Source of the DNA: Pseudomonadota bacterium | GTDB lineage: Bacteria; Bdellovibrionota; UBA1018; CAIMNF01 | Assembly: GCA_027486675.1 (NCBI GenBank) | Contig: JAIXOQ010000005.1 | Location: 124,001-188,000 of the forward strand | Direction: 5' to 3' | Length of the DNA: 64,000 nt | Part shown: positions 4,980 to 18,204 of the stretch, piece after piece | How the letters are laid out: every line of letters starts with the position of its first letter | Numbering within the stretch: position 1 is the first letter of the stretch | The notes under the pieces: model-generated | The model's input: only the letters and a program-made list of their open reading frames with translations | Told to the model about the DNA's origin: nothing | Database searches by the model: none | Program-made: the position numbers and the translations under genes

Positions 4980-6584
4980 CTATTTATACGTCGCTTCCAA
5001 ATCAAGCGGCGGAAGCCCCAAGTTCAATCGATACCAATACACATTCCGCAAAATCGACGTCACATAGTCCCGCGTTTCTCTATACGGAATGGACTCGATG
5101 AACTCATGAATTCCAGCCCCCTGAGGCAGATCTTTGCGCCATCGGTTCACACGAGTGGGCCCTGCATTATAAGCCGCAAGCGCTGCAGGCCAGCTGCCTT
5201 CATACCTTTGAAGCAACTGAGCCAAGTAGCCAACACCCAAACGAATGTTCAGCGCGGGGTCATGGAGATCCGCAAGCGCGATTGCACCATCCATCTCAAG
5301 CGCTGTCACCGGCATCAACTGCATCAACCCAAGCGCGCCGGAAGCGGAAACGGCTTGAGCGTAAAATGCACTCTCTTGCTTGATCAAAGACATCGTCAGA
5401 ATCGGATCCACAATCTTTTCATTTCCGGCAGTTTCAATCTCTTTGGAATACATCTTCGGGAAAGCAACTTGAGCCCAATCCGATACGCGCACAAGAGGTG
5501 ACTGTCGTTGCACTAACTCGGCCAAAATCTTAAGAGGGACAGATGCGAAGCCCACTTGTTTAGAAAGGTCTAAAATCTGCACGAGTCCAGCATCGCTATA
5601 TTGGCGGTAACGCGACATCGCTTCGAGCTCAAGCCGTGCCCCATTCAAGTCTTTCGCCTTTAACAGTGTGTGGACGCGTTGAACCTTAAGTTCATCCCAA
5701 GGACTAAAACCAAAATCTTCGCCTACGTAAGGGGCTAATGGGCTTTGGAGCAACTGGTCCTTTAAATTTTTATTGAGACGTCTGCCCGCAAGGACGGCAT
5801 ACCAACTCCATGGGGCTTTCTGAATGATCTCTTCGAAGATCGGTAACGCCTCTGCACCACGATTGTTGCGCGATAAGCTTTCGGCAATCAAAAAACGGAT
5901 CCGAAACTGGTGGGAGGACTTTGGGAATTCCAGCAAGAATTTTTGTCCAAGATTCGCAGTCTCTACGTAGTCTTTGCGCGTAAACGCTGCAACTATCAAG
6001 CCCAATGCGTCATCATCTTTTTCCCGTTTCTCTGTGTAGGTTCCGCTCAACCTCTCCCCAGTAACGGAAGTAGTGACTAAGGTAAGACTGGCGACAAGGG
6101 TCAAAATTGGCTGAAATTCTTTGGAGTTTTTAGGCAAGACCTCAGAGAGTCTCTTCAACCAATACTCACAGAGTGCGGGGCGGAGTTGTTTTGAGCACGC
6201 TCGCTCCAGTGCTGTAGCAGACCTTTCTGAAAAATAGAGCGGCCACCTGATCGTAGGAAGTTCGTTCAATGCACGCGAAAGAGCAGCCAACGCGAGGTCC
6301 GTTTGTTTGAGTGAAACCAGAAGCTCAAACCGTCGCACTTCAAGTGCGTAAACCAAAGTCTTCAATTCATCTTCAAGGCTGTTGACCTCGATCGACAATG
6401 GGACTTGAAGCAGCTGGCTCTGCATCCCTTCTAACTCAGATAGTGTGGGTTTCTTTTTTTTAACTAACTTCTCGGCCTGGCGATACAGAATGTGATCCTG
6501 CGGAATCTTTGGGACCTGTCTCGGGGACTTTCCCCAAGCACAAGGCAAAAGAAAAAAACCTGCTATTAGCAGGCGGAGGATCAT
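4980..6584 (-). CDS. Soluble lytic murein transglycosylase, SLT family
   Basis: Cleaves peptidoglycan glycan strands with formation of 1,6-anhydro-MurNAc; periplasmic. A signal peptide occupies about residues 1-18. Residues 30-370 are helical and repeat-like, as in the Slt70 superhelical domain. The C-terminal SLT domain (about 385-510) shows the catalytic glutamate in LIKQESAF (Glu404), then GLMQLMP, and AAYNAGP, all hallmarks of family 1 lytic transglycosylases. At 534 residues it is shorter than E. coli Slt70. The start overlaps the stop of the upstream HAMP gene as ATGA, so the two are probably co-translated. Confidence 0.93.
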   Translation of the reverse strand: MILRLLIAGFFLLPCAWGKSPRQVPKIPQDHILYRQAEKLVKKKKPTLSELEGMQSQLLQVPLSIEVNSLEDELKTLVYALEVRRFELLVSLKQTDLALAALSRALNELPTIRWPLYFSERSATALERACSKQLRPALCEYWLKRLSEVLPKNSKEFQPILTLVASLTLVTTSVTGERLSGTYTEKREKDDDALGLIVAAFTRKDYVETANLGQKFLLEFPKSSHQFRIRFLIAESLSRNNRGAEALPIFEEIIQKAPWSWYAVLAGRRLNKNLKDQLLQSPLAPYVGEDFGFSPWDELKVQRVHTLLKAKDLNGARLELEAMSRYRQYSDAGLVQILDLSKQVGFASVPLKILAELVQRQSPLVRVSDWAQVAFPKMYSKEIETAGNEKIVDPILTMSLIKQESAFYAQAVSASGALGLMQLMPVTALEMDGAIALADLHDPALNIRLGVGYLAQLLQRYEGSWPAALAAYNAGPTRVNRWRKDLPQGAGIHEFIESIPYRETRDYVTSILRNVYWYRLNLGLPPLDLEATYK

Positions 6585-7349: not shown

Positions 7350-8252
7350 TCAACGAGTTGGCGGAGTTACAGGCGCAGTCGGAACGTCGCGTGTCGGCTG
7401 AACAATCACGGTCTCAGGCATCACAACTGGGGCTGGAACCACGACTGCTTCCGCTGTCTGCCCCCCTCCTGACGGCAAAGCGCCCGCCTCAGGATTCTCA
7501 GCCTGCCAAGGAATGGAATCAGCTCCAGGCAGAAGGACACGAATGATAACGCGTCTGCTTTTCGCAAGAGCCTCTTCATTCCATGACCCATCGGCATTTT
7601 TAGGACTCCCGATTGCACGCGTTTCCCCAAATCCAATCGCTAAAAGATTTTCACCTTTGTACCCATTGTCAGTAAAAAGCCGAACTACACGAGATGCGCG
7701 CGCACTGGAGAGTTCCCAGTTCGACGCGAAATCTCCACCAACGATGGGACGACTATCGGTGTGTCCTTCGACGACAACTTTGTATTCGGCATTTTCAATC
7801 TTTTGTTTTTCATTCAGAGCAGTGACCAGTTTATCAAGAGTCACGCGACCTTCATCCCGGAGTTCCGCACTCAGAGTGTCGAAGAACATCGTCGAGTGAA
7901 ATGCAATCGCGACACTCAGACCATCCGAAGTCACAGTTGCCTGTTTATCTACACCTGCACTCGTTAAAACACGCTTAATGAAAGCGATCATTCCGCCCGT
8001 TGGAGCTTCATACTGCACTCCCAAATCTTTTGCGACCTGCGCTTTCGCCTTTTCAAATTCCGGAACATTCATCTTCGACATTGAAAAAAGCATGATGTAG
8101 AAGATGCACAAAAGCGTCATCATGTCGGCGTAAGAAATGAGCCAATTGGATTCATCATGACCGTGTTGCGCACGCTTGCGCTCTTTCTCTAACTGCACAT
8201 TAGAGACTTCTGGCAGTTCATGTTCCGGTTTTAATTTTCTAATAATTGCCAT
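7350..8252 (-). CDS. motB: MotB-like stator protein, pair 1
   Basis: The peptidoglycan-anchoring half of an H+ or Na+ driven MotAB stator. From the ATG at 8252 it has 300 residues. That start is preferred because GGAGG lies six bases upstream; a TTG at 8270 would overlap motA. The single TM segment (about 37-59) holds the ion-binding Asp43 in NWLISYADMMTLL. The periplasmic OmpA/MotB domain (about 130-240) includes VEGHTDSRP and NWELSSARA. A Pro/Val/Thr-rich tail follows. It is the last gene of the minus-strand stator/FliG-like locus and follows motA by 14 bases. Confidence 0.93.
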   Translation of the reverse strand: MAIIRKLKPEHELPEVSNVQLEKERKRAQHGHDESNWLISYADMMTLLCIFYIMLFSMSKMNVPEFEKAKAQVAKDLGVQYEAPTGGMIAFIKRVLTSAGVDKQATVTSDGLSVAIAFHSTMFFDTLSAELRDEGRVTLDKLVTALNEKQKIENAEYKVVVEGHTDSRPIVGGDFASNWELSSARASRVVRLFTDNGYKGENLLAIGFGETRAIGSPKNADGSWNEEALAKSRRVIIRVLLPGADSIPWQAENPEAGALPSGGGQTAEAVVVPAPVVMPETVIVQPTRDVPTAPVTPPTR

Positions 8253-8266
8253 AGTGCCTCCTTCGC

Positions 8267-9052
8267 TCAAGCGGCATTACGACGACGAACACGTTCCCCT
8301 GGCAATAAAAATGAGTTGAGACTTTCGCGCATAAATACGGGATTTACACGCTGTTTCAGCAGAATCGCGCCCTCAATGATCATACGGCGTAGAGTGACTT
8401 CTTCTTCGGTCTTCTCTGCCAATGCCTCTCCGATGGGAAGAAACACAAGGTTTGCGAGTGCAATTCCGTAGAGAGTGCCAACGAGTCCTATCGCCATTGC
8501 GGGGCCGATCAGTTTTTCTGCACCCGGCTGACCAATCTTTTGTAAAAGTGCAATCATTCCAAGCGTTGTTGCTAATAGTCCAAAGGCGGGCGGATATTTG
8601 CCGATCTTTGAAAACATATTTGCCTCATGGAGGTAATGGTGTTCAATCGTACGCAGTCGCTGTTCTAAAATTGCGCGAATCTCCCGCTCGCTTAAGATTC
8701 CATCCGAAACGAGTGCCACAGCCTCCCTTAAAAAGGCGTTTTGAATCCCTTGAGTCGCGTCTTGGCTATTCACGAGGCCAAGTGACATCTTTTTATTCAG
8801 TTCAAGCATTTGCTCAATGGTTCCCTGGTAGTCTACTTGGTTACGGCCTAACAAGCGGAGTACGAAAACCTTAGCCAGGGTGAGGATCTTAGACATCGGA
8901 AAACTAATCGCCGCCGCGGCTAAGGTCCCACCGCAGACGATCAAAATTCCGTGCTTATTGAGGAAGAACCCCATGTCCATTCCTGTCTCAGATAGAGAAA
9001 GAAGCAGGACCACGAGGCCAACTACGATTCCAAAAAGCGATGAGAAGTTCAT
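8267..9052 (-). CDS. motA: MotA-like stator protein, pair 1
   Basis: The four-TM ring subunit of a MotAB stator; its cytoplasmic loop pushes on FliG in flagella. At 261 residues it has normal MotA length and layout: TM1-2 within the first 60 residues, a long charged cytoplasmic loop (about 65-150), then TM3-4, with the family proline region KYPPAFGLLATTLGM entering TM3. The ATG overlaps the stop of the upstream cyclic-nucleotide-binding protein as TAATG. Whether it serves flagella encoded elsewhere or the FliF/FliG-like proteins of this operon cannot be told from sequence alone; co-transcription favours the latter. Confidence 0.93.
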   Translation of the reverse strand: MNFSSLFGIVVGLVVLLLSLSETGMDMGFFLNKHGILIVCGGTLAAAAISFPMSKILTLAKVFVLRLLGRNQVDYQGTIEQMLELNKKMSLGLVNSQDATQGIQNAFLREAVALVSDGILSEREIRAILEQRLRTIEHHYLHEANMFSKIGKYPPAFGLLATTLGMIALLQKIGQPGAEKLIGPAMAIGLVGTLYGIALANLVFLPIGEALAEKTEEEVTLRRMIIEGAILLKQRVNPVFMRESLNSFLLPGERVRRRNAA

Positions 9053-9543
9053 TATGCCGTTTTACCTTTCGCGTCTAATGCATTGGACCAAAGCTGATAC
9101 TGAGCAACCATAAAGTTTTCATCGACATCGCGAAGGCGGCTCGCCAGCATGGTCAATGCATGTTCATAAAAACGCATCTTCCGTTCGGCACTGCCTGCCA
9201 AAAATCGATCAAAATCCATTTTCTCTATATAAAGTGTTTGTGATTCTGTCATCGCCCGCACGGTCGCAGAGCGAGGGTTAGAGTCAATGAGCGACAATTC
9301 ACCAAAGAAACTACCTGCAACCAGTTGAGCGACCTGATAGGTCGCGCCATGAAGTGGATCGTCGCGCAAGACTTCGCAAACTCCCTCGACGACAAAATAA
9401 ATTCCCCAGCTGAGTTCACCCTCAATAATGATGTTGGAATAAACATCGTGGCGAATGGTCTGCGCAAGTCGGGCTAGATCCCCGATTTCTTCATCGTTGA
9501 AGCAATGCAAGAGTGCTACTCGTCGGAGCGCATCGACAAACAT
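9052..9543 (-). CDS. Single-domain cyclic-nucleotide-binding protein
   Basis: A 163-residue protein made almost entirely of a Crp-type cNMP-binding beta-roll (about 15-130). The phosphate-binding cassette region is FFGELSLIDSNPRSATVRA, in which the Gly-Glu-Leu-Ser and Arg-Ser-Ala-Thr elements are retained. There is no DNA-binding helix-turn-helix, so it is not a Crp-type transcription factor. It sits directly between the FliF/FliG-like gene (adjacent codons) and motA (TAATG overlap). The context suggests ligand-dependent control of the stator or rotor, analogous in principle to YcgR/PilZ brakes, but this is inference. Which nucleotide binds, if any, is unknown. Confidence 0.85.
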   Translation of the reverse strand: MFVDALRRVALLHCFNDEEIGDLARLAQTIRHDVYSNIIIEGELSWGIYFVVEGVCEVLRDDPLHGATYQVAQLVAGSFFGELSLIDSNPRSATVRAMTESQTLYIEKMDFDRFLAGSAERKMRFYEHALTMLASRLRDVDENFMVAQYQLWSNALDAKGKTA

Positions 9544-11892
9544 CTATGCAACCCTCCGAATGCTCATCTGCGAGACTTCTTGCTGTTCAGGTGCTGCACC
9601 AGAGTTTGGTCCAAGTTCATAAGCAAACATGCGTTCATTGACTTCAGCGAGGTTCACATGACCCTGACTTGCTAGGACCTTAATTCGGTTCATAAACTTA
9701 CGTTCAACCTGGGAGAACGCTTCTTTGTTCACTGGCCCAGTCAGCTGGAGCTCTTCCCGCAGTTCAACTGAAAGGTCTTGTGGTGCCTTAATAAGAACCG
9801 CTTCCCTGGTTTCAGTGTTACAACCCTTTAGAAACACAAGGAGTTCATCGTGCTTCATACCAGAAATCACTTCAACAATCTGGCTGTCTTTCAAGAACCG
9901 CAATGTATCGACACTCACCAACTTAGACTTAACGTTCTGAAGAGTCTCAGCGCTCGAATTGAGAAGCTGTTGAATGACGCCCTTTTGAACTTCCAAGGAG
10001 GAGCGCTCTAAGAAGGTCACTAATACGTCAGTCCCCGGTAGAGCCTCGGTATTGAGTCTTGGATTCTCGGCCTTCTTGCGACGTAAAGCGGCAGCGACGT
10101 TATAGATATAATTTTTTGGAAGATTATCAATGCGAGTCAATTCGGCCATCAACTTCATCCGATTGGCCTCATCAAATGAATGGAACAGAGTCTGCCGCTT
10201 CTTGGAATCACACTGCGTTAAAACAATCGCTTTCACGGTTACCGATTCATTTCGAATCATTTCCATGATCTGAGGCGCGTCCATATCGGCAAGGTAGTCA
10301 AACAAGGTTGCAGACCTAGACCCATGAATCGCCATCTTTCCTGCAACGCAGCGGTGATGCAGACGGCGCAGTAGATTCAGGCGCTCTTCTTCATTGATGT
10401 CGAAAGTGTTTCGAGCGTAGAAATCCATGAGTTCCGTTAGGTCACCCTGAAGGGTTGGATCACGTAACAGATCCAGCACAATGGATTCACCAAAGAAAGT
10501 GATGTACTGCGCAGTCACCTCTATGCCTTCTTCAGTCAACACTTGCCCAAACACATACTTTGCAACCTTCGGCTGTTCGGAGAATGTCGCCATCAGTTCA
10601 TCCTGCAGACGATCGGCCTCCATACGCATCCCAACAATCTGCGCTCTTTCGTCCGAAGAAAGCGACGAACTGCCTTGATGGCCCAAAGACTGCTCTAAAT
10701 CCCGTACTTCACCCCTTGCGTGCGATGAGTTCGGCCAGAAAGTACCCTGACGCCTGAAAGCAAGCGCAACTAAGGTCATTAGCAGTGCAAGAATGACTGC
10801 ACCGAATATGACGGCATATCGGCTGTACTCCGAAAGTAGACTCTGTACCGCATCGCCACTTTCTACTCTTTCAATCTTTTCGAACCGTGAGTACTTACTC
10901 TCGTTTGCGTCCGTAGTCCGACTCGTCGTGTTTGTCTTAGAGTTAGCGCGTGAATCCTCTGAGGAAGAGGTTTTTGAATTCTGTTTAGACTCTATAGAGT
11001 TCTTCTGTTCATTCGAACTCAGAGATTCCTGCTTCGAGCTGCTCTCGAGTTTTGAGTCCTTACGCACACCGCCGCGGCCATAACCCCATTCTTCGGATGC
11101 AATACGCTCAATTTCAGGGAGACTTCGTTTCGCAATCACGGTTGGACGTGGGAATTTCATCATCTTCCCGTTGATCTCAACATTCTTGATAAAGTTCGTC
11201 TTCATTCGCGCCATTTCAAGGAGGCTATTCATCTCATCCGTTGGCAAAGTTTCGTCCATCAAGATCGTCGCCTTGACCCCACGCACCCGGATAGCTGCGC
11301 CACCATCCTGAAAATACTCGGTGTTGGATCCGTACTGAGCTTCCTCAGCGTTTACAGTGTCGGCTGAAACGTCAAACTCGCCTAAAGTACAAGCCTCAGG
11401 ACAGAACTGATTGAGAATTGAGGTGACTTGCTCTTTAAATTGCCGTGTGACACGGTCCCGAAGCTCGACCGATTTGTAAGCCGCACTTGCAGGCTGGGGA
11501 AATCGAAGCGTCTCTTGCTCAAGAGTCACCGGATAATTCAGGCCAGCGAGTTGCTTTTTCAGTAGATCTGTTACTTTTTGGGTAGAAACTTTTCCCAATG
11601 CTTCATCAATCAAAAGCCGAATTTTTGCGGCTGCTGGAGCTAAGGCCAAACGCGCAGAGGGCGCATCTTCAAAACCCGGAGCGACTTGGTCGTCAACGGC
11701 CACATCGACTTCAACGTCGATGCCAATAATCTTGCATTGTTCACCGCAGTGCTTTCCAAGGACAGCCTCGGTGATGCCGCGTACTTGGAGTTCACCTCGC
11801 TTTTGAGCGTCCTCGGTTGTCGAAGAAATCGCGAATGCGAGGGAGTTCATAAGAAGTATAGAAACAAAGAAGGGGAAAGTTAAAGTGTTCAT
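9544..11892 (-). CDS. FliF-like periplasmic domain fused to FliG-like cytoplasmic domain (protein 1)
   Basis: A 782-residue envelope protein counted from the ATG at 11892, which has AGGA just upstream and follows the previous stop by four bases. Order: signal peptide (about 1-21); periplasmic region, with a FliF ring-building-motif-like segment at about 200-251 (ATILMDETLPTDEMNSLLEM then a Val-Glu-Ile strand); a Ser/Asn/Lys-rich linker (about 278-333); one TM (about 359-379); a cytoplasmic domain (about 413-745) that aligns by eye to FliG middle and C-terminal parts. The FliG torque helix region LKGCNTETRE...LSVELREEL keeps Lys689 and Arg712-Glu713-Glu714, matching the charged torque residues of flagellar FliG. 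The EHPQ motif reads ESVT. In flagella FliF and FliG are separate proteins. Function is inferred as a rotor-like partner of the adjacent MotAB. Confidence 0.8.
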   Translation of the reverse strand: MNTLTFPFFVSILLMNSLAFAISSTTEDAQKRGELQVRGITEAVLGKHCGEQCKIIGIDVEVDVAVDDQVAPGFEDAPSARLALAPAAAKIRLLIDEALGKVSTQKVTDLLKKQLAGLNYPVTLEQETLRFPQPASAAYKSVELRDRVTRQFKEQVTSILNQFCPEACTLGEFDVSADTVNAEEAQYGSNTEYFQDGGAAIRVRGVKATILMDETLPTDEMNSLLEMARMKTNFIKNVEINGKMMKFPRPTVIAKRSLPEIERIASEEWGYGRGGVRKDSKLESSSKQESLSSNEQKNSIESKQNSKTSSSEDSRANSKTNTTSRTTDANESKYSRFEKIERVESGDAVQSLLSEYSRYAVIFGAVILALLMTLVALAFRRQGTFWPNSSHARGEVRDLEQSLGHQGSSSLSSDERAQIVGMRMEADRLQDELMATFSEQPKVAKYVFGQVLTEEGIEVTAQYITFFGESIVLDLLRDPTLQGDLTELMDFYARNTFDINEEERLNLLRRLHHRCVAGKMAIHGSRSATLFDYLADMDAPQIMEMIRNESVTVKAIVLTQCDSKKRQTLFHSFDEANRMKLMAELTRIDNLPKNYIYNVAAALRRKKAENPRLNTEALPGTDVLVTFLERSSLEVQKGVIQQLLNSSAETLQNVKSKLVSVDTLRFLKDSQIVEVISGMKHDELLVFLKGCNTETREAVLIKAPQDLSVELREELQLTGPVNKEAFSQVERKFMNRIKVLASQGHVNLAEVNERMFAYELGPNSGAAPEQQEVSQMSIRRVA

Positions 11893-11896
11893 AATC

Positions 11897-12625
11897 CTAC
11901 TTGACCTCACTTGCGATCGACCTCTGTGTCGACCTCTTTTCAATCAATCTCGCCAAAGAAGCATTTCCTGGCTGAAATTCAAGAGCTTGCTTCCAAGATT
12001 TCATCGCGAGATCCCTATACCCCAGGCGATCAAATACGGTGCCTCGCATCTCATAAAGTTTCGCGTTTGTTGGATAAGCGCGAAGAAGTTGATCGATCTC
12101 TAAAAGGGCGGCTTCGTATCGACCGAGCTTATAGAGCTGCTTAACCACATCTACCTTCGCCAAAAAACTCTGCTCCATATTTGGGAGCTCGTCTGAGCTT
12201 TTTAGCCCAAGTCCGGTTTCAATTTGGTTCCTTCTGAGATCGTTTTCAGGATTACTGCGCACAAAGGTTCCAGCGATCTCTCGATCTGAAGGTTGACTTT
12301 TTATGGATTCGTACCGCGAGTCGAGTTCCCCGACGGAAGCATTGGTTCTTGCTACTCCAAATTCCGGTGACATAGGGACTAAAACATCTGAGACACCCCG
12401 TTCAGCTGGAAGTTGTACTTCAAAACTTCGATCCCCATTCTTTGTGCGTAATGTCATTCCTTCTTCAGTCGAAGGCGCATGAGACACACCAAATGGATTT
12501 TCAATCGGACGGGATTCGACGTAACTTTTTTTGGTGCCGAAGAAGCCTTCAAGAGATGCACAGCCATGGACTGTGAGCGCGACCGCCATCATAAACAGAA
12601 TTTTTCTAGAATAGATAGCCGACAC
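11897..12625 (-). CDS. TPR lipoprotein
   Basis: A 242-residue predicted lipoprotein. I place the start at the GTG at 12625 because AAGGAGG lies five bases upstream and gives a clean lipoprotein signal, with basic residues, a hydrophobic stretch and Cys22 in LTVHGC; this overlaps the preceding gene by 20 bases. The middle (about 30-150) is low in recognisable structure. The C-terminus (about 160-235) contains two TPR motifs, for example YKLGRYEAALLEIDQLLRAY and RLGYRDLAMKSWKQAL. It lies between the outer-membrane protein gene and FliF/FliG-like protein 1, so it probably assembles with them in the periplasm. Confidence 0.8.
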   Translation of the reverse strand: MSAIYSRKILFMMAVALTVHGCASLEGFFGTKKSYVESRPIENPFGVSHAPSTEEGMTLRTKNGDRSFEVQLPAERGVSDVLVPMSPEFGVARTNASVGELDSRYESIKSQPSDREIAGTFVRSNPENDLRRNQIETGLGLKSSDELPNMEQSFLAKVDVVKQLYKLGRYEAALLEIDQLLRAYPTNAKLYEMRGTVFDRLGYRDLAMKSWKQALEFQPGNASLARLIEKRSTQRSIASEVK

Positions 12626-13721
12626 CGACGCCTCCTTCAATCCCACTCACCGCTGCTTCAACTGCAGAGGGTAAAACCGCAGTTGCTTTTGGCCGAAGCC
12701 CAAGCAGCACATTCATCGACCAGCGCTTAGCGAAGCGCCACTCATATCCACCTCGAAGTACTGCACCTAAGAAGCCAGATGCATAGGTGCCGCCAATGGC
12801 TCCAAAAATCGACCCACGCATAATGTTGTAGTTTTCTTCATCACCGATAAGGTTCCAAGCATGATGAAAGAGAAGAGTCGTATTAAAGCCTGAATACAGG
12901 GTGTTTGTGCCTGAGCTGAGGCCCACAAGACTTGAATAATCAATGTAGTAGTTCATCTCGAAACCGACTTCCTTCTTCCGATTGTCATAACGCTCTACCA
13001 TGCGAAACCCTAAAGCGAGAGCAGTGCTCGACCCACTGCCTGGTTTTGGAGTAATGATCGTGTAGAGGGCCGGACGGATTTGAATCGTTGGAACGTATTC
13101 ATTCTTTGTTCTGGCTTCTTCGTCTTGACTTGGATCAACGCCGCGACGAAACGCTGCAGCCCTTGAAGTTTCTGAGTTATAGCTCCTAGACCACATCATC
13201 GTCCCAGTTTCCGAATCATAAATATGTAAAGATAGGATCATTCCGCTCGGTTGATAGGCGTAGGCCACATCCATAAAATTCTGGATATTATTCATCTTTG
13301 CGATACGTCCGAGCTCGGCAGAGTTCGCTTCCGGTCGTGAAATGAGTATATTTCCGCCACTTAGACTGGCCCGCTTCGAGCGACATGCGCTGCAATTCAC
13401 AATACGTGTCTTTGTATTTCTCAGGATGCGTTCTGATATCAAGAGTTCGAGGTGGGTTCTGAATGAGGCCGGTACGTTTTCGCTCACGACTATGTCTCTG
13501 AGAGAGACATCTTTCAGGCCATAGACCTGGCCACTTTTCAGATCGTAGTCAAAGTCTGAAAGTAGATCCTCAAGCACAGAATAGAAGTTCCTAGTCTCTG
13601 ACTTTGGGTCAGACTCAGGCGCAAGCTTAGAGGCCGTGGACATAGGATCCTCAGCACCAAGCGCGTGATGCGCTACCAAAAGTAATGCACCTAATATTAC
13701 TAAGAGTTTTCTACTCTTCAT
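12606..13721 (-). CDS. Exported protein, CsgG/FlgO-like N-half and beta-barrel-like C-half
   Basis: A 371-residue exported protein with a signal peptide at about 1-23. The start is the ATG at 13721; the GTG one codon earlier is possible. Residues 50-185 recall CsgG/FlgO-type periplasmic domains (conserved pattern of a helix, a strand with NCSACRS, then SLHIYDSETGTMMWSRSY). That resemblance is weak and only by eye. From about 200 onward, alternating polar/hydrophobic strands ending in GVGVGYLF suggest an outer-membrane beta-barrel. In the same minus-strand locus as both FliF/FliG-like proteins, it may be the outer-membrane end of the machine. A 74-base gap separates it from the upstream gene, leaving room for an internal promoter. 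Confidence 0.6.
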   Translation of the reverse strand: MKSRKLLVILGALLLVAHHALGAEDPMSTASKLAPESDPKSETRNFYSVLEDLLSDFDYDLKSGQVYGLKDVSLRDIVVSENVPASFRTHLELLISERILRNTKTRIVNCSACRSKRASLSGGNILISRPEANSAELGRIAKMNNIQNFMDVAYAYQPSGMILSLHIYDSETGTMMWSRSYNSETSRAAAFRRGVDPSQDEEARTKNEYVPTIQIRPALYTIITPKPGSGSSTALALGFRMVERYDNRKKEVGFEMNYYIDYSSLVGLSSGTNTLYSGFNTTLLFHHAWNLIGDEENYNIMRGSIFGAIGGTYASGFLGAVLRGGYEWRFAKRWSMNVLLGLRPKATAVLPSAVEAAVSGIEGGVGVGYLF

Positions 13722-13795
13722 CACTCATTAGATCGGTCGTTAATCGAAGGCACTTAAAGGATTAGATCTGGGGAGGTGTGGCAAAGGATTGGCAG

Positions 13796-14395
13796 TTAAA
13801 AGTCGAAGTCGAAGGATACGCCACCTAAAAGCTGCGACTCCGTTACAGTGACATCAAAGTTCTTCAGCTGAGCATAGCTTCCAACCAAGAGGAGTCTCAG
13901 GTCTTGAAACAAATAGTACCCCAATGTGACACGACCGGCGAAACCCGTGTACGCCACGGTCTTACTCGAAAGTTGAAAGGAGCGCTGTGAAATATAAATC
14001 CCGAGATCTATTCCAAATTTCGGGGTCTTATCTAATAGGAGTGCATTGTCAAAATTCTGACGTGTCTGCACGCAAGAAAAGAGACAGTACGTTCCACCAA
14101 TATCAAATCCAGTAAATATCGATGCACCGCCTGAGCTTGCAGAGAGGCCTTGATTGAAGACTGCGGCGACTCCAATTTCTGGACTGATGTGGAATTGGTA
14201 AGCTAGATTGAGTGCGCCGATGGAGCTCAACTGACCAGAGTTCGTTTTTACTGCGAAACTACCCGCGAGAATAGCCAATGTGTGGCGGGCCTTAACTGTA
14301 GTTTCCTGAGCCTGACTTTGAGAGCTCAGCGAAATGGCCAGAAGGAGTGCCGCAGACCAAAGACGCAGGCGAAACTTCTGGATTCTAGGAAGCAT
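13796..14395 (-). CDS. Small outer-membrane beta-barrel protein
   Basis: A 199-residue protein with a signal peptide ending near SSQSQAQ (about residue 29). The mature part is made of alternating hydrophobic strands rich in Gly, Tyr and Phe and ends in FDFDF, with the C-terminal aromatic residue recognised by BAM. Two Cys sit close together (TYCLFSC). The start overlaps the end of FliF/FliG-like gene 2 by 11 bases, so it is coupled to that gene. No family name could be assigned. Confidence 0.75.
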   Translation of the reverse strand: MLPRIQKFRLRLWSAALLLAISLSSQSQAQETTVKARHTLAILAGSFAVKTNSGQLSSIGALNLAYQFHISPEIGVAAVFNQGLSASSGGASIFTGFDIGGTYCLFSCVQTRQNFDNALLLDKTPKFGIDLGIYISQRSFQLSSKTVAYTGFAGRVTLGYYLFQDLRLLLVGSYAQLKNFDVTVTESQLLGGVSFDFDF

Positions 14396-16121
14396 TCTTT
14401 AAAGGCTGTTCCCCAGGAACTTCCCTTCGTTTCTTTAGTACCTCTAGGACCATGGATCGCGCCTGTTTACTTGCATCGCTTCTGTACTGAAGACCGTCTT
14501 TCTCGGCCTTCTGCATCATGGATTCTGTCCAAAGACGTTTCTTAGCAGAATAGTTTCTGAGTACTTTTTCCCGCCATTCTTCGCTGTACCCGTAGAACGC
14601 ATGAGCCACTGTGTTTAAGGATAGTGCTTCCCAGTCTTGCTCCTGGAAACCGTCAACGCACTCTAAGACTGACATATTAGGGTACATCTTGACCCAGCCC
14701 TCAGACTCCATGCGTTCCTCTTCCTCTTTGAAAGAAGTCGCCTCCAAAAGCCCTTTCTCTAGAAACTGAAATTGACTTGATGGGGTGGATGTTCTGACGA
14801 GATCTAACTTCTTAACTTCCGCTTCTACTTTCGTAGCCAATGAAAGCTCGGCCTGTTTCTGCTCAACAGTAGTTCTTTGCTTCCTGGACGCTGCAGCAAG
14901 ATCCATCCGCACATCCTGCGGCAGATCGCTGGTCAATAGCAGTCTCCATGCAGGAGTGAGCCCGCTAATCAAAAGAATTTTTTCAATGTCATCCAGCTTC
15001 ATGAACATGGTCATGACGGTGTCATGGCTGAGCTTTGCAACCTGCTGAGTCAAGGCGGACCTTGAAGCACGCATGTACTCAGGCATACGCACAGACACCT
15101 CTTGCGCCCACTCATTCTCACCGATGCTTAGGCCAACCTGAAGGTGCTTCATCGCAAGCACTGTCCTTAAAGGGAATCCAAAGGTATTTTCGTAAAGTTC
15201 TTCCACCCGATTTACCTTGGTGATCGGAATCGTATGGTTCATCCAAGATTCGATCCCTTGAGGATAGGCCTCTAAGCCATCTCGAATGATCCAGATCCAG
15301 GTGTTTTCATCGATCATGTCTAAGACTGCACCTTGGCGCGCCGCCGGCATTTGAGACTGTCCACTACTAGAAGCCGATGGTGCATTGAGCGCAGGCTGTT
15401 GCCCACCCATGACTCCACTGAGCCCCATTCCACCCTCAAGCACTTCCACCAAACGTTTGGCCTGAGCCTCTAATCCTACGGTGAGATCTTTTGAAAGATT
15501 ACGAATGGTAAACAGGATCCCAAACATACCGCAGAGCAAAAGAATAGCAACCGCTACACCGCCGACAACAAACGGGAAAACGGTCGATGACTTTAACCAG
15601 TCGATCCATTCGTTGATGGGAGAGAGACTTTTCCAATACTCAGTCACTTCTGGGGAATACTCTACAAACTTAAAAGTGTCACCGCGGGACGTCTGTAGAC
15701 GAAGCGCTTTAGAAACCGCATTATCGATGAAAGATCTGATGCTTGCAGGCATATCCGGTGCAACGCGGACCTGAACATCTATTTTCTGTATCGAATCTAA
15801 ATAAAGTTGAAGTGGTCGCTCCGTGAGTTGTGCTCCTTGGAGCATCTGCATCTCATGGGTCGTCAGTGTTGTTTGGGAAAGCGGCAATGTAAATTCGCTC
15901 TCTTCATTGACTGACTTGAGTCGATTCCGATCGATCTTTAGATTGAGATCTACTGAAAACTTTCCTTTAGGAATGAATAGCTCGACTTCGCGCTCTGCCG
16001 AACCCTTAAGCATGGCAGAAAGATAGAGCTCTTCTGCGGAAGGAAGGTCGCTCTTTTGTGCTGAGGCGCTTAACGATAGGGTCATAAGAGCGAAAACAGA
16101 TATAATTTTACTTATTCTCAT
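14385..16121 (-). CDS. FliF-like periplasmic domain fused to FliG-like cytoplasmic domain (protein 2)
   Basis: A 578-residue protein with the same build as the 782-residue one. It has a signal peptide (1-21), periplasmic region with a FliF ring-building-like segment at about 114-155 (VQVRVAPDMPASIRSFIDNA, then SRGDTFKFVEY; the Arg-Gly-Asp is typical of FliF), one TM (about 182-205), a Gly/Ser/Pro linker (230-263), and a helical cytoplasmic part. The end (about 485-570) follows the FliG C-terminal pattern: YSEEWREKVLRNYSAKKRLW resembles the FliG SEE-REK-LRNMSKRA segment. The torque helix is degenerate, with TES in place of the paired acidic residues. The start has a strong ribosome site GGGAGGG and overlaps motB by 14 bases. 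The fusion claim rests on visual alignment. Confidence 0.75.
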   Translation of the reverse strand: MRISKIISVFALMTLSLSASAQKSDLPSAEELYLSAMLKGSAEREVELFIPKGKFSVDLNLKIDRNRLKSVNEESEFTLPLSQTTLTTHEMQMLQGAQLTERPLQLYLDSIQKIDVQVRVAPDMPASIRSFIDNAVSKALRLQTSRGDTFKFVEYSPEVTEYWKSLSPINEWIDWLKSSTVFPFVVGGVAVAILLLCGMFGILFTIRNLSKDLTVGLEAQAKRLVEVLEGGMGLSGVMGGQQPALNAPSASSSGQSQMPAARQGAVLDMIDENTWIWIIRDGLEAYPQGIESWMNHTIPITKVNRVEELYENTFGFPLRTVLAMKHLQVGLSIGENEWAQEVSVRMPEYMRASRSALTQQVAKLSHDTVMTMFMKLDDIEKILLISGLTPAWRLLLTSDLPQDVRMDLAAASRKQRTTVEQKQAELSLATKVEAEVKKLDLVRTSTPSSQFQFLEKGLLEATSFKEEEERMESEGWVKMYPNMSVLECVDGFQEQDWEALSLNTVAHAFYGYSEEWREKVLRNYSAKKRLWTESMMQKAEKDGLQYRSDASKQARSMVLEVLKKRREVPGEQPLKNAS

Positions 16122-16896
16122 TATTCCCTCCCGCCTTGTCGTCAGTTTTTACTAGACGCGGTTCGATTCTAAAGCTGATCCGACGTGGATGCAGGTCTTC
16201 TGTTGAAGCGATTGCACGCGTGTCCGCATACCCTTCGGCCGAGAGTGCTGAAGAATCAAATCCCTTACGAATCATGAAAGATAGGACACGAGTTGCACGC
16301 AAAACACTCAGTTCCCAGTTGTCTCTGTACTGATGTTTTCCAGGGCTGACCTGCCGGCCGTCTGTATGGCCTTGCACGGCTACGCGAATTTTGTCCTTAT
16401 GGGCGAGCATTACTTTTGAAAATCTTTCTACAATTCCTCTTCCTGTGGAAGTCAGCTCAATAGAACCAGGTGTAAAGAACTCGACCGTTCGGAAAGAAAC
16501 GTATACCGTTTCGGCCTCAGTCTTAACCTGAACGTTTTCTTTTTGATCCAAGGCTACGTTCAAAGACTCAATCCAGTCGGCATTAACCGCAGCCACGCTG
16601 GGTGCGGCCGAGACTTCAGAACGTTCCGCAGCAGGTTTACGATTCGTAGACGTTGAGTTTTGATCCTCTACGTTCCCAGTGACATCGCTGTTCCTACTCT
16701 CTGCGCTGCCAAATTGACCTACGATCAGGTTTAAAACTTCGGATTTCTTTTCTGTCTTTTCGCCCGCACTATAAAACACGATAAAAAAGCAAAGAAGCAA
16801 GGTAAGCACGTCAACATAGGAGACTGCCCAGTTCGCCTCACCAGAGCGCGCTTTTCTAAGTCCAGCTGATCTCCAAGTTTGACTACGCGACTTCAT
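16108..16896 (-). CDS. motB: MotB-like stator protein, pair 2
   Basis: A second MotB, 262 residues from the ATG at 16896; this start is preferred over one 22 codons upstream, which would lie within motA. The TM segment holds the ion-binding Asp29 in NWAVSYVDVLTLLL. The OmpA-like peptidoglycan-binding domain (about 130-250) shows VQGHTDGRQ, NWELSVLRA and ADTRA. A Ser/Asn/Thr-rich linker joins them. It overlaps motA by 14 bases and FliF/FliG-like gene 2 by 14 bases, which indicates a tightly coupled module. It is clearly diverged from the MotB at 7350. Confidence 0.92.
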   Translation of the reverse strand: MKSRSQTWRSAGLRKARSGEANWAVSYVDVLTLLLCFFIVFYSAGEKTEKKSEVLNLIVGQFGSAESRNSDVTGNVEDQNSTSTNRKPAAERSEVSAAPSVAAVNADWIESLNVALDQKENVQVKTEAETVYVSFRTVEFFTPGSIELTSTGRGIVERFSKVMLAHKDKIRVAVQGHTDGRQVSPGKHQYRDNWELSVLRATRVLSFMIRKGFDSSALSAEGYADTRAIASTEDLHPRRISFRIEPRLVKTDDKAGGNNENK

Positions 16897-17614
16897 AGAG
16901 ATCCATCTGTTCCTGCACATAGAACGGGGTTTCTCTTCGATGCCAGAGGCGCACAGCCTCAACCATCATACCCAAGTCTTCCTCATGCTCCCGCGCGATT
17001 CCCTCGAGCAACTCTCCCACCGGCTGGATAATAAAGTTAGATAAAACGAGACCATAAAGTGTTGCGGTCATAGCTACAGCAAGGTTGACGCCGATAAAAC
17101 GTTGCCCTTCGCTCGATCCTAAACTTCCAAAGATTCCGATAATCCCAAAGACCGTACCAATCATCCCGAGTGCTGGAGGATATTTTCCTAAGTTGAGCAC
17201 TGTGACTGCGCCTCGGCTGATGCGTTCAGCTTCTTGCCTGGCCGCTTCATTAAGGAGGTCATCCAATTGATCTTGAGTCAGTCCTGCACTAATCCAGGTC
17301 AAACCTTTATTGAGAGTGATGTACCCCGTCTCTTCAGGCATGCGGCCACGAGCGATTTCGTTCGTGACCTCCATGATTTTGGCTTTTAACTTTTTTCTTC
17401 TATCTTTTGAACCACTAAAGGCATGCCGTACCAGGTTCATCATGCTTCTAAAGTCGGCCATCTTTGAGTTAGTAAAAAGAACAGCAAATGTTCCACAGAC
17501 CACAATAATCAGACCTTCAGGATTAAAGAGTGCCTTCAAAGTGAGGGAGGACTTAAGAAATGCTCCGCCTAGAACAAGTACAGCAAGAATGGCACCAACA
17601 AAGAGGTTTCTCAT
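16883..17614 (-). CDS. motA: MotA-like stator protein, pair 2
   Basis: A 243-residue MotA homologue with four predicted TM segments (about 3-22, 30-48, 150-172, 183-205) and a charged cytoplasmic loop between TM2 and TM3. The MotA signature LGKYPPALGMIGTVFGIIGI is present. The TVFG element is shared with the wider MotA/TolQ/ExbB superfamily, but the TM layout and the MotB partner with an OmpA domain argue for a Mot-type stator. The ATG overlaps the stop of the PEGA gene (ATGA). Confidence 0.92.
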   Translation of the reverse strand: MRNLFVGAILAVLVLGGAFLKSSLTLKALFNPEGLIIVVCGTFAVLFTNSKMADFRSMMNLVRHAFSGSKDRRKKLKAKIMEVTNEIARGRMPEETGYITLNKGLTWISAGLTQDQLDDLLNEAARQEAERISRGAVTVLNLGKYPPALGMIGTVFGIIGIFGSLGSSEGQRFIGVNLAVAMTATLYGLVLSNFIIQPVGELLEGIAREHEEDLGMMVEAVRLWHRRETPFYVQEQMDLYEVA

Positions 17615-18204
17615 CGTCCACCTACTCTGCGTTTCATTCGGTCCACAACTGCTTGCACTGCCTCTCTGAGGACTCTTCTATTTTCAGGAATCTCTTTTAA
17701 CAAAGAAACATATATAGACTCTGCCTTCTGAAGCTCTCCGCCAATAAATAGGGAGTTTGCGTAAAGGAGTCGTGCCATCACACTCGCCGGAAACTCTGAC
17801 TTCAAAAGTTCTGAAGCTTGCTGTGCCTGTCTCACTTGTCTTTGATCAAGTAAGGATTGAATTTGAAGGACAGAATCTAAGGCCCCTTCGAGTCGACCTT
17901 TTACGGCGGCCTCTTGCGCTGCGGTCAACCACTCGGTTGCGTCTTTCATCTGAACTCGCAGGACGATTGCTCCAGATGAACCTTCAGGAACTGCGACCTG
18001 TACCGGAACATAGCCCTGCTTTTCCACTACATATGCCCCTGCTCGGCCCTCGGGCAAAACAGTAGGGGCTTCGCCCAAAAGCTTCTTTTGGCCGCCTTCG
18101 CTGACATCATAGACTTTTGATCCAGCCACATTGGATTCAATACGGACGTCCGCTCTTGCCGTCGAAGGATTGAATAGAATGATGGCCAACACTAAGCAGT
18201 TCAT
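17611..18204 (-). CDS. Exported PEGA-domain and TPR-like protein
   Basis: A 197-residue periplasmic protein with an 18-residue signal peptide. Residues 19-75 form a PEGA-like beta domain (VRIESNVAGSKVYDV, then LPEGRAGAYVVEKQGYVPVQ). Residues 90-190 are helical and TPR-like (YANSLFIGGELQKAESIYVS). It is the first gene of the minus-strand stator/FliG-like locus and is coupled to motA by ATGA. PEGA domains are often found in envelope and surface-layer-associated proteins, which fits a peptidoglycan or envelope contact role. Confidence 0.75.
   Translation of the reverse strand: MNCLVLAIILFNPSTARADVRIESNVAGSKVYDVSEGGQKKLLGEAPTVLPEGRAGAYVVEKQGYVPVQVAVPEGSSGAIVLRVQMKDATEWLTAAQEAAVKGRLEGALDSVLQIQSLLDQRQVRQAQQASELLKSEFPASVMARLLYANSLFIGGELQKAESIYVSLLKEIPENRRVLREAVQAVVDRMKRRVGGR

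Follow-up and report, generated by a model that had tools for sequence, protein, structure and literature searches.

What does a bacterium build from stator and rotor genes of flagellar type that stand apart from its flagellar genes? The question is raised by positions 7350–18204 of a 64,000-nucleotide stretch (the window) of contig JAIXOQ010000005.1 from a Bdellovibrionota genome (GCA_027486675.1), that of a relative of the predator Bdellovibrio, here contig C13 of a host genome of 2.7 Mb in 33 contigs. Eleven open reading frames (ORFs), all on the minus strand, encode two MotA/MotB (MotAB) stator pairs and two long proteins that, judging by structure models, are natural FliF-FliG fusions. 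They fall into two motor modules, head to tail in the window. We propose, with a probability of roughly 0.6, that each module is a free-standing ion-driven rotor-stator motor, flagellar in descent but separate from the flagellum, that would turn an envelope-spanning complex, perhaps for surface motility. Within this proposal, a non-flagellar rotor-stator motor appears likely, and surface motility as its output is put forward tentatively, with the odds somewhat against it.

The two fusions, FG782 of module 1 (782 amino acids, aa) and FG578 of module 2 (578 aa), were modelled with AlphaFold2 from 17 and 12 homologues, respectively. In the FG782 model, a signal peptide is followed by two alpha-beta-beta-alpha-beta domains (residues ~26–129 and ~138–245), a disordered Ser/Asn/Thr-rich linker, a transmembrane (TM) helix (~347–382) and, from residue 413, an all-helical FliG-like half. 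The alpha-beta-beta-alpha-beta fold is the topology of the FliF ring-building motifs. In Foldseek comparisons with the PDB, all 16 matches of the FG782 model at E≤0.001 are FliG or FliF, and the best 24 matches of FG578 are FliG, C-ring subunits and FliF rings, one of which passes 0.001, so that the case for FG578 is one of consistency more than of strength. In both models FliG is matched by the C-terminal half and FliF rings by the periplasmic half. FliG and RBM folds, whose absence from predicted structures the original prediction had named as counting against it, are therefore recovered in both proteins. The likeness to FliF RBM3 and FliG was borne out in part by profile comparison (hhalign): FG782 matches FliG at 97% and FG578 matches FliF at 44%, at the end of RBM3 plus TM2, but the match of FG782 to FliF and that of FG578 to FliG are negligible, and FG578 has no meaningful Pfam match. 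The assignment of FliF for both fusions and of FliG for FG578 consequently rests on the structure models.

The residues through which a flagellar rotor would meet its stator were followed in 17 aligned module-1 fusions, with FliG positions in Escherichia coli numbering. The K264 equivalent is basic in all 17, that of D288 acidic in all 17 and that of D289 acidic in 16, and a basic residue often lies near R281; the R297 equivalent is not strictly kept in this family. The rotor-stator pairs have been named as R90/D288-D289 and E98/R281 (PMC12505986), and module-1 MotAs carry a conserved Lys-Lys or Arg-Lys near R90. The fusion of the HD100-type Bdellovibrio genome described below differs more in its charges, with K264 lost and R281 kept, and the torque-charge argument thus covers module 1. 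The EHPQR loop, functionally important at the FliM-FliG interface (PMC7355467), retains only the Glu of EHPQ in all 17 module-1 fusions, and the MFXF hinge is absent from their alignment. Because this FliM-binding loop is lost and the genome holds no extra FliM or FliN, the motor is naturally read as lacking the flagellar switch.

In a maximum-likelihood MotA tree, the module-1 MotAs and the module-2 MotAs each form one clade (100/100), and every fusion-linked MotA lies on one side of a branch supported at 98/97 (55 rows). The host's MotA on contig C19, which belongs to a third, flagellar-type MotAB pair, groups with the third MotA of the HD100-type genome and that of E. coli (100/100, branch 2.52). 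For six rows on the fusion side no fusion was recognised nearby, in some cases because the locus is short, and several branches are long, which leaves the detail uncertain; on sequence, the module MotAs form a clade apart from flagellar MotA. Along the ion path, the equivalents of P173, T209 and P222 are kept in all MotAs shown and that of MotB Asp32 in both window MotBs. TolQ/ExbB models fit the window MotAs far more weakly than MotA models do. Rotor and stator both clearly descend from the flagellum, whose mechanism is also the one that we infer here. Two observations on stators stand by themselves: just before the flagellar-type MotAB on C19 lies a gene for a 506-aa membrane protein without a Pfam match (L145:7580-9100), and a third type of MotA, divergent and with no fusion partner recognised, occurs in two genomes of the same family (L251:9088-9987, L237:1722-2534).

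The locus is physically separate from the flagellar genes of its host. A flagellar cluster on contig C28 holds its own FliF, FliG, FliM, FliN and FlhA, and FliF, FliM, FliN and FlhA occur once each in the genome, all in this cluster; no flagellar FliF, FliG, FliM/FliN or FlhA lies near the locus on C13, and the module loci contain no export, rod, hook or filament genes. The possibility that the locus is part of a conventional flagellar cluster was accordingly rejected, as the original prediction had expected.

The order of module 1 (OMP372, TPR lipoprotein, FG782, usually a cyclic-nucleotide-binding (cNMP) gene, MotA, MotB) is the same in 18 of the 18 relatives compared, often with four-base overlaps, which rules out a chance arrangement. 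The cNMP gene holds its position in 12 of these relatives, and six of the same family lack it. Among 55 genomes of the order, FG782 was recovered from 40, and it was not found in four flagellated genomes of family f3 or in three genomes of the other orders of the class, several genomes being incomplete. Six relatives have module 2 (PEGA/TPR, MotA, MotB, FG578, OMP199) on other contigs and with no module 1 next to it, and a PEGA/TPR homologue precedes MotA in all of those whose contig reaches far enough (L135-L139). The locus thus consists of two separable modules, a division that emerged from the gene-neighbourhood survey proposed with the original prediction.

The gene inventory, assigned with Pfam and NCBIfam, is given in Table 1. 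Positions and strand of the eleven ORFs agree with the original prediction, as do the two MotAB stators, the TPR lipoprotein and the cNMP-binding protein; its PEGA assignment is marginal, and the protein concerned also has a supported TPR part. Gene junctions range from -80 to +71 bp and are mostly overlaps, nine of the ten overlapping or abutting within 4 bp and one measuring 71 bp. FG782 is likely to start at the ATG at 11892, its ORF as listed, which opens with a TTG, being 799 aa long; for MotB1, the probable start codon is an ATG that lies six codons into the listed ORF. Neither outer-membrane protein could be assigned to a clear Pfam family, a few OMP372 members showing a weak OMP_b-brl/DUF3575 match; OMP372 is 48–60% identical in 15 relatives of the order and ends in an aromatic residue in 17 of 17 aligned sequences.

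Table 1. Genes of the two modules and a neighbouring gene, in window coordinates.
Feature	Position	Strand	Evidence
Module 2, PEGA-like + TPR periplasmic protein, 197 aa	17611..18204	-	TPR_16 1.4e-5; PEGA E 0.12 (marginal)
Module 2, MotA-like stator subunit, 243 aa	16883..17614	-	MotA_ExbB 1.6e-18; own clade (100/100) in MotA tree; P173, T209, P222 equivalents kept
Module 2, MotB-like stator subunit (plug + OmpA), 284 aa as listed, start uncertain	16108..16962	-	OmpA 4.6e-13; MotB_plug 2.7e-9; Asp32 equivalent in SYVDVLTLL
Module 2, FG578, predicted fusion: FliF-like periplasmic domain / TM / FliG-like, 578 aa	14385..16121	-	AlphaFold2 pLDDT 71.7; Foldseek PDB; homologues in 6 relatives
Module 2, OMP199, small predicted outer-membrane beta-barrel, 199 aa	13796..14395	-	Signal peptide; C-terminal Phe, end GGVSFDFDF; conserved after FG578 in 6 relatives
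Module 1, OMP372, outer-membrane protein (periplasmic domain + predicted C-terminal barrel), 372 aa	12606..13724	-	C-terminal aromatic residue; conservation in order
Module 1, TPR lipoprotein, 249 aa	11897..12646	-	Lipobox Cys invariant in 16 homologues; TPR_2 2.1e-6
Module 1, FG782, predicted fusion: signal peptide, two alpha-beta-beta-alpha-beta domains, Ser/Asn/Thr-rich linker, TM, FliG-like region, 782 aa	9544..11892	-	FliG_C 2.4e-15; FliG_M 9e-9; AlphaFold2; Foldseek; hhalign to FliG 97%
Module 1, cyclic-nucleotide-binding-domain protein, likely regulatory input, 163 aa	9052..9543	-	cNMP_binding 6e-15
Module 1, MotA-like stator subunit, 261 aa	8267..9052	-	MotA_ExbB 3e-19; module-1 clade (100/100)
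Module 1, MotB-like stator subunit (plug + OmpA), 306 aa as listed	7350..8270	-	MotB_plug 1e-15; OmpA 1.2e-14; Asp32 equivalent in SYADMMTLL
Possible extra partner, TPR-SLT lytic transglycosylase	4980..6584	-	SLT 1.7e-27; lies after MotB1

In the motor that we propose, the FliF-like periplasmic domains would assemble the fusion protein into a ring in the inner membrane, as the predicted fold suggests, with a ring of FliG-like domains attached in the cytoplasm. The dedicated MotAB, anchored to peptidoglycan through OmpA, would turn this ring by ion flow, in keeping with the residues kept along the ion path. The direction of rotation would probably not be switched by the flagellar mechanism, given the lost FliM-binding loop and the lack of an own FliM/FliN. 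Because an outer-membrane barrel and a TPR lipoprotein are conserved with the rotor, torque may be transferred to the outer membrane: in module 1 the periplasmic ring would pass it to the barrel protein and the TPR lipoprotein, and in module 2 to the barrel and the PEGA/TPR protein. The cNMP-binding protein would serve as the control input of module 1. The most likely output would be the movement of something at the cell surface, for example in surface motility. Of this picture, the anatomy is well supported by gene content and order, folds, residue conservation and the separate stator clade, whereas ring formation, rotation, the outer-membrane coupling and the output are inferred.

Several findings weigh against this proposal. 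The FliG half of FG578 was assigned by structure comparison and an iterated family profile, without an independent sequence match, and model confidence is modest for these single chains (pLDDT about 72, pTM 0.34–0.37). The R281 equivalent is displaced or changed in module-1 fusions, and flagellar E98 cannot be aligned in the module MotAs. No cargo or adhesin gene lies in the 7350–18204 locus. FlhA is present in 55 of 58 genomes of the class, the three without it being less than 80% complete, and because of this the presence or absence of the module within the class cannot separate it from the flagellum. Finally, a 2011 study of HD100 (cited in PMC10225642), by its title, reportedly found that the products of three motAB pairs contribute to the motility of a single flagellum.

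This last report, together with the flagellation of all near-complete genomes of the class, speaks for an accessory flagellar part, a role that must be weighed because a conventional flagellar cluster is present elsewhere in the host. The extra MotAB pairs would then serve the flagellum as alternative stators, with the fusion acting in its motor as an additional ring or as a specialised partner for stator docking; large changes in motA2/motB2 expression in fliL mutants (PMC11323537) are in line with such a role. However, the module MotAs form a separate clade, a flagellar-type MotAB pair of the host itself lies on another contig, the FliM-binding loop has been lost and several fusion modules can share one genome. 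Moreover, flagellated genomes exist with a single MotB (G062 and G064, with no fusion found in the former), and the flagellated f3 genomes lack FG782. We therefore consider an accessory flagellar role unlikely. It is also unlikely, and more so, that the fusions are not rotors but that their FliG-like half is a helical-repeat scaffold that holds MotAB channels at one site, as an anchor or sensor. Low sequence identity to FliG, a weak match to MgtE_N, another helical-repeat domain, and the strong divergence of paralogous fusions would fit a scaffold, but a mere anchor needs neither the torque charges at K264, D288 and D289, kept in 16–17 of 17 module-1 proteins, nor the ring domain that both fusions are predicted to keep, and this alternative is accordingly given very little weight.

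A somewhat unlikely alternative accepts the motor and changes its task from locomotion to envelope work, in which ion flow would act on the outer membrane or the peptidoglycan by moving lipoproteins, polymers or surface proteins, or by remodelling the wall during predation. The operon does encode an outer-membrane barrel and a TPR lipoprotein, and the window has a lytic transglycosylase gene after MotB1, as do four same-family loci at a distance of 449–541 bp. There is precedent in the Agl-Nfs motors of Myxococcus, which rotate polymer at the spore surface (PMC3858216). Against this stand the absence of a transport channel, polymer synthesis or secretion gene from the conserved core and the position of the transglycosylase, which lies outside the module beyond the host's family. 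The free-standing motor with an output at the cell surface is thus the reading that we prefer.

Modules of this kind extend beyond the host's order. Within Bdellovibrionota, the range of our search for fusions, phylum and family searches recovered divergent fusions near MotAB outside the order as well, several genomes have more than one such module, and a scan of named genomes matched only close relatives, nearly all titled as metagenome-assembled genomes of Bdellovibrionota type. On sequence grounds, FliG-fusion/MotAB modules are thus widespread and paralogous in the phylum. In genome G361, OMP372, the TPR lipoprotein, MotA, MotB and a fusion of 545 aa are arranged differently. Genome G207, which we take to be of the Bdellovibrio bacteriovorus HD100 type, has three MotB genes and, a few kilobases from a MotAB pair, a fusion of 577 aa at 2,913,423-2,915,153 (FliG_C 4.6e-10, FliG_M 1.4e-7). 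From its position this pair is presumably motAB2 (Bd3020-Bd3021). The interval between fusion and MotAB holds, on the same strand, genes for a PEGA/TPR protein, a small barrel protein and a protein of 325 aa and, on the opposite strand, one for a barrel-like protein of 205 aa. No fusion gene was recognised beside the MotAB pair at 128–129 kb, and motAB1 (Bd0149) was therefore rejected as the counterpart of the module in favour of motAB2. Three MotB genes have also been published for HD100 (PMC11323537). The HD100-type fusion is patchy in the family of G215, with strong matches in 11 of 61 genomes, to a query that would miss other fusion types.

Related genes were seen in other contexts. As to the transglycosylase gene behind MotB1, a study cited in PMC13104615 reports, by its title, that such an enzyme links the gliding complexes of Myxococcus to the wall. 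Stand-alone proteins of ~145 aa with little beyond a FliG_C-like domain occur in relatives (L146:9675-10115, L147:9347-9772), none being found in the host genome, and other families of the phylum encode FliG-like proteins of 211–366 aa beside which neither MotAB nor any other module gene was recognised (L055:6971-8071, L056:6791-7426, L057:6722-7411). Genes for HAMP-SpoIIE phosphatases, which may be regulators, recur beside MotAB or fusion modules in separate loci (L169:7673-9424, L173:11375-13291, L242:7173-9101). Fusion modules also adjoin genes for very large proteins that carry fn3, FG-GAP, Ig-like or LamG domains (L176:11050-15750, L174:8165-11998, L243:14259-18398, L255:11725-16074); such neighbours of fusion or MotAB modules, seen in several genomes, are possibly surface adhesins.

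FliG and FliF are taken to be rotor parts specific to the flagellum, and to our knowledge no flagellar-type rotor-stator machine that builds no flagellum has been described before. Natural FliF-FliG fusions that recur across a phylum together with outer-membrane proteins and MotAB of a non-flagellar clade would make the first such machine, and a categorically new one if the motor were shown to work apart from the flagellum. The gliding of Bdellovibrio is independent of flagella and pili, its machinery is unidentified, and finding its motor has been called a major open challenge (PMC13104615, a 2026 review). Both modules are candidate engines of surface movement in this group. The broader idea that a multicopy family of such motors, with FliF-FliG-fusion rotors and their own MotAB and outer-membrane complex, is the gliding engine of the Bdellovibrionota, B. 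bacteriovorus included, is doubtful at present; because a homologous module sits beside motAB2 in the HD100-type genome, the question is directly testable. Since gliding in Bdellovibrio is regulated by 3',3'-cGAMP (PMC9140294), the cNMP-binding gene of module 1 may also be of interest. More generally, these modules bear on the origin or reuse of flagellar parts and on the published treatment of all Bdellovibrio MotAB pairs as flagellar stators.

A FliF-FliG rotor with MotAB outside the flagellum was not found described in the literature searched, which covered few subscription papers and preprints. The Zorya system resembles them in a MotAB-like stator (ZorAB) at a locus away from the flagellum, but was rejected: PADLOC matches ZorB only, through the MotB fold, with no ZorA and no Zorya effector (ZorC/D or ZorE). 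GldLM/PorLM, of type 9 secretion and Bacteroidota gliding, is likewise a proton-driven 5:2 motor linked to the outer membrane, but has been described as not homologous to MotAB (PMC13104615), and no type 9 secretion genes were seen in the locus. AglRQS/Glt of Myxococcus is also an ion-driven stator-like motor with envelope-spanning partners that include TPR and outer-membrane proteins and with a possible role in surface motility. Agl has no known FliF/FliG rotor, and its proteins group with TolQR/ExbBD-like generic transporters (PMC12505986), whereas the module stators, with a true MotB plug and a FliF/FliG-like rotor, are not of this TolQ/TolR-like type; no curated Glt model matched the TPR lipoprotein and barrel proteins present here, no direct comparison to GltA-K having been run. 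The flagellar motor shares several features with the modules: a FliF-type periplasmic fold (in predicted structure), FliG M and C domains, MotA/MotB with a plug and an OmpA peptidoglycan-binding domain, and the key charges. It differs in that the modules join FliF- and FliG-like parts in one gene, have lost the FliM-binding loop, lack FliM/FliN and FlhA at the locus, bring their own outer-membrane proteins and have MotAs in a separate clade. Engineered FliF-FliG fusions of Salmonella and Vibrio assemble rings (PMC6079021, PMC11481574), which makes a natural fusion mechanically plausible; those are laboratory constructs of flagellar proteins, whereas the putative fusions described here are natural, diverged and encoded outside the flagellar locus.

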